Positions 1-14,591 of a DNA stretch of 64,000 bases are shown piece after piece. Origin of the DNA: Geomonas sp. RF6 (lineage in GTDB: Bacteria; Desulfobacterota; Desulfuromonadia; Geobacterales; Geobacteraceae); NCBI RefSeq assembly GCF_021044625.1, contig NZ_CP087999.1, positions 4,485,001 through 4,549,000 of the forward strand, read 5' to 3'. The stretch's first letter is position 1. The number at the start of each line of letters is the position of its first letter. A program made the translations under genes and the position numbers. The notes below the pieces were generated by a model, which saw nothing but the letters and a program-made list of their open reading frames with translations, searched no databases and was not told the DNA's origin.

Positions 1-737
1 TTTACTCCCTGCGGATCCTGGAGGAAATCACCGGCATTGAGGATGTATTCCCGGTTGCCCGCGGAAAATGAACCGCCTCGCTGTGCCGCGTTCCCCTTTT
101 GCAGGGCTCCGGCAACGGAGATCGGGGAGAGGCCCAGGGAGGCGAGCTTGCCGCCGTCGATTCGTATTTTGACCTCGCGGGAGAGGCCCCCCTTGATCTC
201 CGTTTCCCCTACGTCGTCCGATTTCTTCAGCTCGTCGCAGAGCTCGCGGGCAACCCTTCTGAGGGCGTAGTTGTCGTATCGGTCGGACCAGAGGGTGAGG
301 GTGACGATCGGCACGTCGTCGATCGACTTCGGCACCACCAGAGGCTCACCGGCGCCAGGAGGGATAATCCCCCGGTTGCTCATCACCTTGTTGTAGAGCT
401 TAACCAGTGACTCTTCCATGTTTTGGCCGACCAGGAATCGGACAGTGACGATACCGATGCCTGGGCGGCTGGCGGAGTAGAGATATTCGACACCCTTGAT
501 CTCCCACAGCTTTTTCTCGAACGGGATCACCAGCCGCTCCTCGACTTCTTTGGGGGAGGAGCCGGGCATGGGGAGGTACACGTCGATCATCGGCACCGTT
601 ATCTGCGGTTCCTCCTCACGGGGCGTCGCGAGGACGGAATAGAGTCCGAGGAGGAGGGACGCCGCCACGATGAGTGGGGTGAGCTTTGAGTCTATGAAGG
701 CCCGGGCGATTCGCCCGGCGAAGCCTATGCTGTTCAT
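1..737 (-). CDS. RND efflux permease, N-terminal part (cut by window edge)
   Basis: Inner-membrane proton-driven transporter of an AcrB/HAE-type tripartite efflux pump. About 245 N-terminal residues are in the window: a first membrane helix around residues 18-37, then the motif TPREEEPQI and the start of the porter domain (PMPGSSPKEVEERLV, then the ASRPGIGIVTVRF strand). Full-length members are about 1,000-1,050 residues, so most of the gene lies left of position 1. The ATG at 737 has AGGAG in front of it, and that SD overlaps the stop codon of the adaptor gene upstream, so the two are translationally close. It is the last visible gene of an operon with the adaptor and a TolC-type channel. 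The family is clear; the substrate (drug, solvent, metal) cannot be read from this part. Confidence 0.9.
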   Translation of the reverse strand, partial: MNSIGFAGRIARAFIDSKLTPLIVAASLLLGLYSVLATPREEEPQITVPMIDVYLPMPGSSPKEVEERLVIPFEKKLWEIKGVEYLYSASRPGIGIVTVRFLVGQNMEESLVKLYNKVMSNRGIIPPGAGEPLVVPKSIDDVPIVTLTLWSDRYDNYALRRVARELCDELKKSDDVGETEIKGGLSREVKIRIDGGKLASLGLSPISVAGALQKGNAAQRGGSFSAGNREYILNAGDFLQDPQGV

Positions 738-746
738 CGTGTGCTC

Positions 747-1841
747 CTAAAGGACCTTTGTGCCGTCTGCGACTTTCTCCGTGCCACCGGTGACGATACG
801 GTCCCCTGCGCCGAGACCGGAAATAACCTCGACAATCTCTCCCGTCTCCCTCCCCAGGCGCACCAGGCGCAGCCTCGCGATCCCCTGCGCAGAGACCGCC
901 CACACCGACGTGAGGCCGCCGCGCTCAACGACGGCGCTGCGGGGAACGGCAAATCCCGGCCGCGTCCCGACATGAAAGAGCGCCTTGCCGTAGCTTCCCG
1001 ATCTCAGCGACCTCCCGGAGGTGTCGATCTTAACCAGGAAGGTGCGGCTGGCCGGATCAACCACCGGCACAATCTCCGAGATCCTTCCGCTACCGTGAGC
1101 CCCTTCGAGCACAACGGGGACCACGTCCCCGACCTTCACCTTGCCCAGCGCCCCCTCCGGAACCGCCACCTCCAGTCGCAGTCCGCGTTCACCCTCGATC
1201 GTCAAAAGCGGCATGTTGGGGAACACGGTCTGCCCCGGCTCGACCTGTTTGCTAGTCACGACCCCCGAGATGGGGGATGTCACCCTTGCGTACCCGGCTA
1301 TGGCGCCGGCGCCCTTTGCTCCTTGCCTCGCCTGTGCAAGGCGTGCCTCGGCCCTGGCGACCCCTTGTGCTGCAGTCTCCTGTTCCATCTGGCGCTGCTC
1401 GAACTCTTGGCGGGTAACTGCTTCCTCTTTATACAGTTTTTCGAAACGGTCGAAGGTGGCGTCAGCCAATTTCTTGCGCGCCTGTGCCTCGAACACGCCT
1501 CGCTCTGCCTCCTGCACGCCCGAAAGCGCGCCGGCTGAGGCCGCTCCGGTCTCGGGAGAGTCGATGGTGAGAAGGAGGGCGCCTTTGGCAACAGGACTTC
1601 CCTCGGCTATGTACACGCGGGTCACGGTCCCGCTGATTCTAGCCGCTATGGCTGCAGATTCTCGCGCCTTGAGGGATCCGACGGCTTCGATGGTTTCGGG
1701 GATGCCCCGGGAGGTGACAGTGCCGACTGTTACGCCCGTGACTCGGGGAGGGGAGGATGGTTCTTCATTCCCTCCGCTTTTGCTGCAACCGATAGCGAGC
1801 CCCAGCGCCAGAGCAATCACTCCATTATGGATCCAGTTCAT
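747..1841 (-). CDS. RND efflux periplasmic adaptor lipoprotein (AcrA/MFP family)
   Basis: Membrane-fusion protein that bridges the RND permease and the TolC channel across the periplasm. It has 364 residues. A signal peptide ends in the lipobox LAIGC (Cys19), so it should be lipid-anchored. It then shows the biotinyl-lipoyl-like half motif (ARISGTVTRVYIAEGSPVAKG), a long alanine/glutamate-rich coiled-coil hairpin at about residues 100-180 and the second lipoyl half (ARVTSPISGVVTSKQVEPGQ). C-terminal beta-barrel and membrane-proximal domains follow. Its start overlaps the end of the TolC-like gene by 4 bases (ATGA), and the permease starts 9 bases after its stop. Family assignment is firm; the pumped substrate is unknown. 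Confidence 0.93.
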   Translation of the reverse strand: MNWIHNGVIALALGLAIGCSKSGGNEEPSSPPRVTGVTVGTVTSRGIPETIEAVGSLKARESAAIAARISGTVTRVYIAEGSPVAKGALLLTIDSPETGAASAGALSGVQEAERGVFEAQARKKLADATFDRFEKLYKEEAVTRQEFEQRQMEQETAAQGVARAEARLAQARQGAKGAGAIAGYARVTSPISGVVTSKQVEPGQTVFPNMPLLTIEGERGLRLEVAVPEGALGKVKVGDVVPVVLEGAHGSGRISEIVPVVDPASRTFLVKIDTSGRSLRSGSYGKALFHVGTRPGFAVPRSAVVERGGLTSVWAVSAQGIARLRLVRLGRETGEIVEVISGLGAGDRIVTGGTEKVADGTKVL

Positions 1842-3190
1842 TTAGTCACCTCCTTGAGCAGGACGCCGGCGGCGTAGTAGACATGAGCGGTAGCCTTCAG
1901 AAGGCCGTTTCCGACCTCCACGACGTTGGCACGAGCGGTGTTGAGAGCTGTTTCGGCGTCCATCAATTCCACTACGGAAGCGAGGCCGTTTTCGTAGCGC
2001 TTGCGCACCAACCGGACGTCTTCCTCTGCGGCGGAGAGTGCGGCACGGGCGGAATCGAGCTTGAGCCGCGCTTCTGAGCGGCGCAGCAGGCTTTCCCTCA
2101 CCTGAAGTGCCACCTCGCGCCGCTCATTTTCCAGCATCGCTGCCGCAGCGTCTCTTGCGGCGAGAGCCCGGGCCTTTTCGTGAGATCGACGCGTCCCGTC
2201 GAAAAGCTCCCACCTCAGGTTGATGCCGGCATTCCACGAGTCATTGTCGTTGCCAAAGGGCACGTCCCTATCGTTTAGCTGGTAGCCGGCGCTCGCGTAT
2301 ACCGTGGGGTAGTAGGCACGCTGTGCCTGGCGCACTCCTACCTCTCCTTTCTCCACCGCCGTCCTCCCTGCCTTGAGGTCGGGGCGGTTCATAAGGGCAA
2401 GCTGCACCAAGTTTTCAGGACCGGACGGGTCCGGTACTCCGGGCTCTCCGGCTATGTCGAGGAGGATGCCGTCGTTCCCGCCAGTCAGCAGATTGAGGCG
2501 CAGCTTGGCAACGGTAAGGTCGTGCTGCGCTCCCACGAGCTTCTGCTGGGCTTCCGCGACTGAGGCCCTGGTCCGCAGTTCATCAGACTTGAGTCCCAGG
2601 CCATTGGTGTGGCGGGTTGCCGCAAGACGTGCATGTTCCCCGGCATCGGCCACCCCCTGCTCGGCAACCCCAACGAAAGCCTTGGCACGTCGTACCTCCA
2701 GATACGCCTCGTAGACCCGCAGAGTAACCTGCTCTTTTTGAATCTGCAGCGACAGGTCGGCACTCGCGGCGTCCTTTTCTGCGGCGTCGACGGCAGATCG
2801 TATGGAGAAGTCGACGAGCGGCTGCTGTAGCGTGAATGACGTCTGGAAGTCGCCGCGGGGGGAAGGGTGGTTAAGGTTGCTCGGTGCGAAATCAGTGGCT
2901 GGAGCGATGCGCCCCTCGTCAAGCTTCATCATGAAAACACGACTCGGAGTTGTAGAGACTAGCGCGCCGCTATCCAGAAAGACGCTTGGAAGATACCTGG
3001 TTCGCGCAACGTCAACAGATGCTTCGGCTGCCTTCATGGTCGAAGATGCAGCCTTTATAAGGTGGTTGCTCGCAAGTGCCCTCTGGATAGCCTCGTCAAG
3101 AGTGACCGAGTCTTCCGCCGCAATGCTGGCAGTCGCCTCAAGGAGGAGTCCCACCAGAAATATAGATGCCCTCGCTATGGTACAGCGCAT
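1838..3190 (-). CDS. TolC-family outer-membrane efflux channel
   Basis: Outer-membrane trimeric channel component of the same efflux pump. The 450 residues begin with a signal peptide ending near VGLLLEATASIAA. Two OEP-type repeats follow, each with long amphipathic helices rich in Ala, Glu and Arg, as in TolC (SVTLDEAIQRALASNH at the start of repeat 1, and LVQLALMNRPDLKA at repeat 2). It is the first gene of the three-gene operon and the promoter sits 45-75 bases upstream of its ATG. The SD is AAGGAGAACGTCC. Nothing in the sequence tells the pump's substrate, and no regulator gene is adjacent. Confidence 0.93.
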   Translation of the reverse strand: MRCTIARASIFLVGLLLEATASIAAEDSVTLDEAIQRALASNHLIKAASSTMKAAEASVDVARTRYLPSVFLDSGALVSTTPSRVFMMKLDEGRIAPATDFAPSNLNHPSPRGDFQTSFTLQQPLVDFSIRSAVDAAEKDAASADLSLQIQKEQVTLRVYEAYLEVRRAKAFVGVAEQGVADAGEHARLAATRHTNGLGLKSDELRTRASVAEAQQKLVGAQHDLTVAKLRLNLLTGGNDGILLDIAGEPGVPDPSGPENLVQLALMNRPDLKAGRTAVEKGEVGVRQAQRAYYPTVYASAGYQLNDRDVPFGNDNDSWNAGINLRWELFDGTRRSHEKARALAARDAAAAMLENERREVALQVRESLLRRSEARLKLDSARAALSAAEEDVRLVRKRYENGLASVVELMDAETALNTARANVVEVGNGLLKATAHVYYAAGVLLKEVTK

Positions 3191-7720: not shown

Positions 7721-9154
7721 ATGATCTCTACGAAGCTGCTGGTAGTGGTTCCTTTTGTGTTTGCCGCAGTCACTGCCGGTGCCGCAGATCTTTCACCGGT
7801 GGAGACACTTGGAAAGAAGCTATTCTTCGATCCATCCCTCTCCAATCCCCCCGGCCAATCGTGCGCCGACTGCCATGATCCATCCGTAGGGTGGACGGGA
7901 CCGGATTCCGCCATAAACGCCGCGGGAGCGGTGTATGAAGGAGCCATCCACACCCGGTTCGGTAACCGCAGGCCCCCAACTGCCGCCTACGCCGGCTATG
8001 CCCCGATCCTGCAGAAGTGCGACTGCATGGGCGGTGGCGGAATGGGGGGCTCTCAGACGTGCAGCGGCATGTGCAGCGGCAGTATGGGGGGCGGCGGCAT
8101 GGGCGGCGGTATGGGCGGCGGTATGGGAGGAGGCATGGGGAGTGGAAGTAGCGGTGCCTTTATGGGAGGCATCTTCTATGATGGGCGTGCCACCGGGTGG
8201 ACTCTCGGTGACCCGGTGGCCGAACAGGCTCAGGGCCCATTCCTGAATCCGCTGGAGCAGGGGAACCCCAATGCGAAGCACGTCTGTCTCAACGTAATGA
8301 GAACCGACTACGCACTCCTCTTCGAGCAGGTCTGGGGTCCCGGTTCCCTTGACTGCGTCAAGAATGTGGACGGCACGTACGAGCGCATAGCCCGGTCCAT
8401 AGCGGCGTTCGAGCGCTCCGGCGAGGTAAGCCTGTTCAGCTCCAAGTTCGACACCTTCTGGAAGAACTCTCAGGGAAAAATGCCTCCGGTGCCGATGATA
8501 AACTCAATGAACTGGACCAGATTCAGGAACCGTGGGCTTTCAGACGTGGAGCTAAAAGGGCTCGCGATCTTCAACGGCAAGGGGAAGTGCTCAACGTGCC
8601 ATACCCTGCAACCTATGAATGGCAGCGCCTTACCCCTCTTCACCGACTTCGGATATCATAACCTCGGAATACCGAAGAACCCGGCCAATCCCTTCTACAC
8701 CATGCCACGCAAGTGGAATCCTGACGGTGAAAAGTGGATCGATCAGGGGCTCGGGGGCTTTATGGCCAAGACAGCTGGGATAGAGAGCTCGAGCGGCGCC
8801 TCGACAGACTACACTGCCTTTGCAGCCGTCAACAAAGGGAAGCACAGGACGCCGACGCTTCGCAACGTCGACAAGAGGCCGAACGACCAGTTCACGAAGG
8901 CTTACGGGCACAACGGATACTTCAAGAGCTTGCAGGAAATGGTGCACTTCTACAACTTGAGGGATGTGCTGCCTCTCTGCAAAACGCCCAACCCTCCGAC
9001 CGATGCAATGGGAGGCGCCACGTGCTTCCCGGCGCCGGAGGTAGACGAAAATATCAACCGGACTCAGTTGGGGAACCTTGGTCTTGATCAAGCAGACGGA
9101 ATGGCTCTGATTGCTTTCCTGAAGACGCTTTCCGACGGTTACGTAGCCCCCTAG
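7721..9154 (+). CDS. Dihaem cytochrome c peroxidase (MauG/CcpA family) with Met/Gly-rich insert
   Basis: Periplasmic c-type cytochrome expected to reduce H2O2 with electrons from small cytochromes, or to oxidise another substrate as MauG relatives do. It has 477 residues: signal peptide cut near VTAGAA, first haem site C48-A-D-C51-H52, second haem site C290-S-T-C293-H294. Classical members have about 320-350 residues. The extra length is partly a Cys/Met/Gly insert at about residues 100-150 containing CDCM, CSGMC and four GMGG-type units, encoded by 12-bp tandem repeats. The clustered Cys and Met suggest a metal (perhaps copper) site, but that is inference. A strong hairpin terminator follows. 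It appears to be a single-gene transcript. Confidence 0.9.
   Translation: MISTKLLVVVPFVFAAVTAGAADLSPVETLGKKLFFDPSLSNPPGQSCADCHDPSVGWTGPDSAINAAGAVYEGAIHTRFGNRRPPTAAYAGYAPILQKCDCMGGGGMGGSQTCSGMCSGSMGGGGMGGGMGGGMGGGMGSGSSGAFMGGIFYDGRATGWTLGDPVAEQAQGPFLNPLEQGNPNAKHVCLNVMRTDYALLFEQVWGPGSLDCVKNVDGTYERIARSIAAFERSGEVSLFSSKFDTFWKNSQGKMPPVPMINSMNWTRFRNRGLSDVELKGLAIFNGKGKCSTCHTLQPMNGSALPLFTDFGYHNLGIPKNPANPFYTMPRKWNPDGEKWIDQGLGGFMAKTAGIESSSGASTDYTAFAAVNKGKHRTPTLRNVDKRPNDQFTKAYGHNGYFKSLQEMVHFYNLRDVLPLCKTPNPPTDAMGGATCFPAPEVDENINRTQLGNLGLDQADGMALIAFLKTLSDGYVAP
8099..8146 (+). repeat. 12-bp tandem repeat inside the peroxidase gene
   Basis: Four consecutive 12-base units (ATGGGCGGCGGT and close variants, at 8099, 8111, 8123 and 8135) encode Met-Gly-Gly-Gly repeats. 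A related unit lies just upstream at 8083. Such repeats can expand or contract by slippage without breaking frame. Confidence 0.85.
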
Positions 9155-13494: not shown

Positions 13495-13941
13495 TCACGG
13501 CCTTCTCCAGCCAGCCCACACCGGTGTTCCGTTTTCATCCCTCAGCTTCAGTACTTGGTCTCCTTTTTTGACCTCGGCTGCGATGATCACCGGTTTTCCA
13601 CCCATCGTTACCCGGGACCCCTTAACCTCGATGCTATCACCTTTGGCAATCTGCTGGTCCTGTTGCTCGATGAACCAGCCCGGGCCGAGGTGTACCGGGA
13701 TCGTCTCCTTGTCGGTTTTCACCATCAGGTGAATCCCGTACTTCATCCCCTTCATCGGAGTCGTTTTCTGCACCGACTCGACCGTGCCGGTCAGAGTCTC
13801 GACGGTGGCAGGGTTGTACATGCGCTGGTACGAGCCGCCCATTCCCCAGCCGCCGCCTCTGCCGGGACCGGCGCCGTATGCTACTGTCGTCAGTGTGAAG
13901 AAAAGTGCTGCCGCCAAACAGATGAACCTTTCCTTTTTCAT
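13495..13941 (-). CDS. Small exported protein, OB-fold-like
   Basis: A 148-residue protein with a clear signal peptide (MKKERFICLAAALFFTLTTV, cut near AYGA), a Gly/Met/Arg-rich segment (GPGRGGGWGMGGSYQRM), then about 100 residues of alternating beta-strand pattern. These include TLTGTVESVQKTTP, GIHLMVKTDKETIPVHLGP and GDSIEVKGSRVTMGGKPVIIAAEV. This resembles small periplasmic OB-fold proteins, but I cannot assign a named family. The ATG at 13941 has SD GGGAGG; the open frame runs further upstream only because it joins the remnant of a broken flavoprotein gene. It may be expressed with that remnant and the TetR gene. Confidence 0.8.
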   Translation of the reverse strand: MKKERFICLAAALFFTLTTVAYGAGPGRGGGWGMGGSYQRMYNPATVETLTGTVESVQKTTPMKGMKYGIHLMVKTDKETIPVHLGPGWFIEQQDQQIAKGDSIEVKGSRVTMGGKPVIIAAEVKKGDQVLKLRDENGTPVWAGWRRP

Positions 13942-14054
13942 CGCGCTGCCTCCCTTGTCTTCGATTGTCGGGCGTATGCTCCGGGGGCCCGTGAAGTCTT
14001 GCACTGATCTTAGTCTACTGCGGCCCTGGACCACTGCGTAGGGCCAGGTCAGGA

Positions 14055-14591
14055 CACCGCCAGCGTGCTCTGCAGGCGAGCGAACGTCGAGGAACACGAA
14101 ATCTTCTGCCGCATCAAGCTTTCTCTTTACCTCCATGGGCGAAATCCCGCGCGACTGCCCGTTCAGCTTGTTCTTCAGGACGTCCGCTGCCACCAGGAGG
14201 TTATCCATGGCGGCGGAATAGGGCGGGGCATACGCAAGGTCTAGCTGCGAGAGCTGCTCGGCCGTCGCCCTAAAAGTAATGGCTGCCACTGCCGCGTCCA
14301 CTCTCATGTCAACGACCCCTTCCCCTACCGCCTGCCACCGCCTCCGTCTCCGTAATGACATCGACACCTTTCACTTTTTTGAAGAAACCTGGATCTCCCA
14401 CTACCCCCACCGGCGTGGTCATGAGCTCCTTGACCTCCGTGACCGCATCCGAGACGTAGCAGGGGATGCCGCAGGCCTTAGGAAATGAACTTCCCCTGGT
14501 CCACGAGGGTCACCTGCGCCTCCGGGTCACACCGTTTCGCCTTGGCTGCGGCCTTGGCACCGGCAGCATTCGCTCCTATCACTACGATAGC
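14055..14591 (-). pseudogene. Remnant of CoA-disulfide-reductase-like flavoprotein with rhodanese domain
   Basis: A broken gene. Reading leftward from 14591, one frame gives the FAD-binding Rossmann start AIVVIGANAAGAKAAAKAK and a continuation to a TAA at 14480-14478. A shifted frame then gives ACGIPCYVSDAVTEVKEL and on to ITETEAV. The central FAD/NAD region of about 250 residues is missing. A further frame carries the dimerisation part (AAITFRATAEQLSQLDLAYA, PPYSAAMDNLLVAADVLKNK) and the beginning of a rhodanese domain (EDFVFLDVRSPAEHA), which also breaks off. Intact relatives have about 550 residues and act on CoA disulfide or persulfides. SD-like AAGGAGG precedes the remnant, in line with the TetR gene upstream. 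Confidence 0.85.

Follow-up and report, generated by a model that had tools for sequence, protein, structure and literature searches.

A methionine- and glycine-rich arm on a MauG-like di-haem protein of Geomonas sp. RF6 and its possible role in copper handling

To our knowledge, many members of the MauG/CCP superfamily of di-haem proteins have no assigned substrate. Classical bacterial cytochrome c peroxidases carry a Met ligand on the electron-transfer haem. MauG of Paracoccus (PDB 3l4m series) has the CCP_MauG fold, two c-haems and a Tyr ligand (Tyr294), and its Trp93 has been reported to bridge the two haems (PMC6405878). The larger MauG-like peroxidase BthA of Burkholderia (PDB 6nx0) has a Tyr-His ligated haem and a bridging residue other than Trp (Ser257). 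A link to copper has been described for the MauG-family di-haem proteins CorB, the surface-associated peroxidase SACCP and MbnH, CorB and the SACCP of Methylococcus being co-transcribed with the copper-binding proteins CorA and MopE (PMC3912023), and a Met-rich segment is known from exported copper-handling enzymes of another family, the CueO-type multicopper oxidases (PMC6155172). Here we describe a gene of Geomonas sp. RF6 whose product combines such features, in that a Met-rich segment sits on a MauG-like di-haem protein. The gene lies in a stretch of 64,000 nucleotides (contig NZ_CP087999.1, positions 4,485,001 to 4,549,000 of the forward strand), hereafter the window, to which coordinates refer unless a locus label is given. 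The Met-rich arm of this protein is no private repeat: MauG-like enzymes carry several such arms, at different loops, and a copper function is the best-supported reading, albeit an unproven one. Among the literature matches listed, no title or abstract dealt with Met/Gly arms of MauG-like proteins or with their pairing with multicopper oxidases.

The gene occupies positions 7721-9154 of the plus strand (as do all features of the protein given below), stop codon included, and encodes 477 amino acids. The product matches the Pfam family CCP_MauG (PF03150) with 100.7 bits against a gathering cut-off of 25.6 (E 1.6e-28) and contains the two c-haem CXXCH motifs expected of this family, CADCH at residues 48-52 (7862-7876) and CSTCH at residues 290-294 (8588-8602), the Cys, Cys and His of both being conserved without exception in the 49 aligned proteins. 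Among PDB structures, both the sequence search (phmmer) and the predicted fold (Foldseek) return MauG first and then BthA. The six-coordinate haem appears to have a Tyr ligand of the MauG type, as Tyr411 (8951-8953) aligns with MauG Tyr294 and is Tyr in all 49 aligned proteins; the Met ligand of the classical peroxidases does not stand at this position. Unlike MauG, the window protein has Tyr153 (8177-8179) at the position of the bridging Trp93, where 3 of the 49 aligned proteins have Tyr and 46 have Trp. A bridging residue other than Trp is shared with BthA, for which no Met/Gly arm is mentioned in the part of the literature consulted. The proteins of loci L040 and L058, which belong to other clades, also have Tyr at this position, and the paralogue in the window's own genome (L009/L132) retains Trp. 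The best NCBIfam match is the MbnH model TIGR04039 (63 bits against a cut-off of 362.85), the MauG equivalog TIGR03791 scores 50.6 bits against 443.85, and the SAM_quin_mod model also matches far below its cut-off; the protein is therefore classed as a MauG-like enzyme. Pfam named no MbnP-like protein among the seven window neighbours, a result obtained without running an MbnP model. The signal-like N-terminus together with the c-haem motifs indicates that the protein is probably exported.

Met-rich segments that bind Cu(I) are built of repeated Met residues (or CxC motifs) with flexible spacers and occur in exported proteins. The arm of the window protein (site 1, residues 98-147, 8012-8161) has a sequence of this kind, with 8 Met, 24 Gly and 4 Cys (residues 100, 102, 114 and 118), on a protein that is probably exported. 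In its densest 40-residue stretch Met, Gly and Cys account for 33 residues, against a mean of 14.3 and a maximum of 22 in 5000 shuffles of the same protein. The arm stands in place of a short loop ahead of Tyr153, and it is missing from MauG in the phmmer alignment. The residue 95-150 segment measures 56 residues here and, in 74 unarmed rows, 12 to 17, apart from one row with 28. AlphaFold2 models the core of the protein with a mean predicted local distance difference test (pLDDT) score of 89.1 and predicts most of the insert to be disordered, pLDDT being below 50 over residues 103-113 and 115-140. An earlier note, made by a model from this DNA alone, had described a Cys/Met/Gly-rich insert at 8018-8170 (residues 100-150) between the two haem sites; the CDCM, CSGMC and GMGG units that it listed are all present, and they do lie between CADCH and CSTCH. 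Its estimate that the protein is about 130 residues longer than usual is too high, as the four first-aligned unarmed relatives have 379-420 amino acids; about 40 of the extra residues come from the site-1 insert and about 20 from a second extension (site 2, residues ~250-272, 8468-8536), a loop where other members have stretches containing Met/Gly or Cys.

The distribution of the arm was followed through several searches. A first search matched 8 of 58 genomes at E 1e-30, including the window's own, which also holds a 74% identical paralogue; a family search matched 9 of 48 genomes at 1e-60 and a phylum search 3 of 395 at 1e-120, and a contig scan contributed the best 80 of 565 relatives, that is, the closest relatives and not the whole family. 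Among 400 genomes of the phylum of L040 only L040's own was recovered, and the absence of matches among 288 genomes of the phylum of L014 is uninformative, since L014's own genome was missed as well. In a quick tree of 90 rows, which excluded the three arm sites and rested on 341 columns, with L139 and L053 left out and support given by the Shimodaira-Hasegawa-like approximate likelihood ratio test (SH-aLRT) with no bootstrap, the window protein belongs to an 11-row clade (SH-aLRT 100). All 11 have a Met/Gly-rich, extended site 1, so that the result named in the earlier note as refuting, absence of the insert from all homologues, was not found. The arm is absent from the 73 rows outside this clade and a six-row clade described below. 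Members beyond the window's family are L142, from another family of the phylum, L013, a deltaproteobacterial metagenome-assembled genome (MAG), and L014, a verrucomicrobial MAG.

Within the clade the arm varies widely in length and detail. The segment ranges from 24 to 70 residues, in line with the in-frame length change that the note had anticipated, and slippage seems to supply this variation. The shortest version, that of L143, counts 3 Met and 8 Gly among its 24 residues and lies under the arm-scoring threshold. In L133, L135 and L012 some Gly are replaced by Pro, Ser, Asn or Thr, and Met still recurs every three to six residues. The L013 arm has 10 Cys, in CSCGC, CTC and CTCGC motifs, and the L014 arm has 7 Cys with three CGC motifs, L014 also carrying seven MGGGG units at site 2. 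The four Cys of the window arm are not what is essential, as the segment is free of Cys in 5 of the 11 rows. A haem-binding role for them was also considered and is ruled out, there being no CXXCH in the window arm and no added CXXCH in the arms of L013 or L014.

The repeats themselves carry a record of constraint. On the 64 kb window, Tandem Repeats Finder (TRF) reported only a 12-bp array of 4.2 copies at 8089-8139 (plus strand), which codes for the GMGG units, and one overlapping row; the copies of this array differ from their consensus by 4 synonymous and 0 nonsynonymous changes. Within arms, 15 tandem arrays were found, in 14 of 19 armed genes; their copies depart from consensus at 45 synonymous and 16 nonsynonymous positions where 75% nonsynonymous would be expected, a result whose p of 2.5e-15 is indicative only, because sites within one gene are not independent, and whose sharpness owes something to the minimum of 2 Met and 40% Gly set for an array, a filter biased towards intact units. 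Just one of 60 Met codons in these arrays was changed. Two earlier versions of the test gave 122 synonymous and 155 nonsynonymous differences, when adjacent codons were compared and mixed unit lengths confounded the count, and 34 and 18, when arrays outside arms were included and the main array of the window was missed. Arrays in L134 and L010 are nearly pure and recent, and slippage is therefore active; the remaining 5 of the 19 armed genes have no qualifying array left. The arm is thus under protein-level constraint and is not a private slippage accident. The L010 arm (1760-1960, G001) coincides with an assembly gap, its flank being repeated on both sides with differing counts of a 15-bp unit, through misassembly or real heterogeneity.

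A second, nearby clade (L023, L024, L032, L037, L040 and L050; SH-aLRT 96) unites proteins of Thermodesulfobacteriota and Chloroflexota. Its members have no arm at site 1, where they have 13 to 20 residues. Site 3, the loop directly after the haem-ligand Tyr, is Met/Gly-rich in all six, with 4 to 9 Met. In the window protein this loop (residues ~414-439, 8960-9037) is unarmed and contains Cys 420 and 435. In five of the six members site 2 too is long and Gly-rich and contains Met or Cys, with no Met in that of L050; under the strict arm threshold, only L037 and, from the other clade, L014 pass at this site. Three further proteins of this kind, two at L218 and one at L219, were found in a later search and stand outside the tree. 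The model of the L040 protein predicts disorder at both arm sites (residues 225-244, 400-414 and 416-423). Taken together with the site-1 arms, those at sites 2 and 3 mean that one fold carries a similar arm at three different loops, and the armed state requires two changes on the tree.

Multicopper oxidase genes were found near 9 of 21 armed loci (L014, L023, L024, L040, L050, L134, L142, L218 and L219). BLAST was used for this count, as a motif search had missed the oxidases of L014 and L050. At L134 the oxidase lies on the same strand under 80 bp from the peroxidase, and its best PDB matches are laccases, including the Thermus thermophilus oxidase; at L142 it is 2.1 kb away on the same strand, L040 has two such genes nearby and L219 has one on each side of the armed gene. 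The nine are divided between 3 of the 12 site-1 loci (the window, L013, L014, L132-L138, L142 and L143) and 6 of the 9 site-2/3 loci, the latter total including L139, an armed fragment, and L032 and L037, which have short flanks, with none found at these three. In the sample of the best 80 of 565 relatives, an oxidase was near 5 of the 9 armed loci and near 1 of the 71 that lack an arm (Fisher p 3e-5), a test that counts the unaligned L059 and L083 and the partial L053 as unarmed and ignores relatedness, four of the five armed positives being one clade. At L218 (56-3096) a tandem pair of armed MauG-like genes stands beside one large multicopper oxidase.

Similar arms also occur on the oxidases themselves. 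In the window's genome, an unlinked multicopper oxidase about 1.9 Mb away (L222, 7302-9095) carries a Met-Gly arm (ARAMMGGGMAGGGMGGGGM) after its Tat-like N-terminus. When 48 family genomes were scanned with a degenerate GMGG-M DNA pattern, with the reversed pattern as control, 8 matched, 5 in the MauG-like peroxidase, 1 in another MauG-like gene (at site 3) and 2 in multicopper oxidases, directly after a Tat-like N-terminus; the reversed pattern matched none of the 48. One genome with an armed multicopper oxidase had an extra match in a 41-residue frame. Among 297 genomes of the phylum, 20 matched against 4 with the reversed control, and the genes recognised by eye included 2 MauG-like, 3 multicopper oxidases and 3 GroEL tails, together with a number of small Met-rich exported proteins; some other frames were unrelated or doubtful. 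When the genomes that carry nine of the armed loci were scanned, 3 matched, two in the armed gene only and one in another Met-rich protein as well.

That the arm is kept in relatives, regrown on other loops and in several cases found beside a copper enzyme suggests copper handling, and this idea gains independent genomic support because of the oxidase neighbours at 9 of 21 armed loci, the armed oxidases and the Cys-X-Cys-rich versions in two relatives. On balance we lean towards a flexible soft-metal arm, probably for Cu(I), that is under selection on a MauG-type enzyme acting together with multicopper oxidases, where both the binding of metal and the reaction are inferred. The earlier note had offered two alternatives, a site for a soft metal (copper) and a disordered arm for docking; the disorder is supported by the model, and copper by the genomic context. 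The arm would act as a loose ligand of many thioethers, with thiolates in some versions, capturing Cu(I) outside the cytoplasm, and/or would dock the di-haem enzyme on a multicopper oxidase, and the di-haem core would draw on peroxide to oxidise either the Cu(I) so bound or the partner oxidase; slippage of the repeats would supply length variants from which selection keeps Met and flexibility. A more specific and distinctly tentative proposal is an extracytoplasmic two-enzyme copper system, present also in lineages whose life is mostly oxygen-free, in which the armed enzyme captures Cu(I) and serves as a peroxide-driven cuprous oxidase, or matures or regenerates the partner oxidase; it is offered with the same reserve that the arms arose separately on different loops of the same fold as part of such a system. 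The partner would then differ from that of CorB and SACCP, which is CorA or MopE, since in relatives of the window protein it is, where present, a multicopper oxidase.

Several observations weigh against a copper function. Pfam recognises no copper protein among the seven window neighbours, BLAST found no multicopper oxidase at 9 of the 12 site-1 loci, counting the whole 64 kb window and the flanks available for the other 8, none was found near the L139 fragment, and the Fisher test leans on one clade, as stated above. Unarmed L056 has a multicopper oxidase sequence, a fragment, nearby, and unarmed L220 has oxidases that share about 54% identity with the L014 ones. The link is therefore partial, and the pairing may predate the arms; at a third unarmed locus, L221, no multicopper oxidase was found nearby. 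Nor is the GMGG tract exclusive to copper proteins, as apparent GroEL tails and others carry it.

An arm without metal might instead be a sacrificial antioxidant, its Met residues absorbing damage from high-valent haem or peroxide and perhaps being repaired by methionine sulfoxide reductases. The idea builds on the report that the high-valent state of MauG decays with damage to nearby Met (PMC6405878), and a Met-rich, Gly-spaced, disordered arm would suit a peroxidase family; it leaves unexplained the Cys-X-Cys-rich arms of L013 and L014, the multicopper oxidase neighbours and the armed multicopper oxidases, and we consider it unlikely. Less probable again is a flexible docking linker that binds the surface of a partner, a multicopper oxidase or a multihaem cytochrome, with any metal incidental. 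The arms are predicted to be disordered in both models, and a multihaem cytochrome with a WNxLGMHC motif stands beside the peroxidase in two genomes of the window's family, L133 (4305-7478) and L135 (9131-12229), and beside an armed multicopper oxidase in a third, L140 (5887-7218). However, the Met/Gly composition persists despite wide variation in sequence and length, unlike a specific binding motif.

Neutral slippage, in which a GC-rich repeat merely expanded in a permissive loop, would account for the 12- and 15-bp arrays, nearly pure in L134, for the ambiguous length at L010 and for segments of such different sizes. Clade-wide retention of the arm (11 of 11 rows), its place on the tree, with arms on three loops in two clades, and the excess of silent differences in arrays where Met is rarely changed make this explanation very improbable, and 5 of the 19 armed genes keep an arm with no qualifying array. 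What emerges is a clear case in which slippage supplies, and selection keeps, a disordered segment rich in potential metal ligands within an enzyme. Apparently selected, present on three loops and partly tracking multicopper oxidases, the arm points to a specific, testable partner for one branch of the MauG/CCP superfamily, and a copper function, if true, would extend the di-haem copper link of CorB and its relatives from methanotrophs to Geobacteraceae and others.

Two further features of the window may be noted. A 290-residue frame on the minus strand (13498-14367), with no Pfam match, contains a GRGGGWGMGG stretch, and at 1-3190, also on the minus strand, an outer membrane efflux protein (Pfam OEP) lies beside frames resembling an adaptor and a resistance-nodulation-division (RND) pump.
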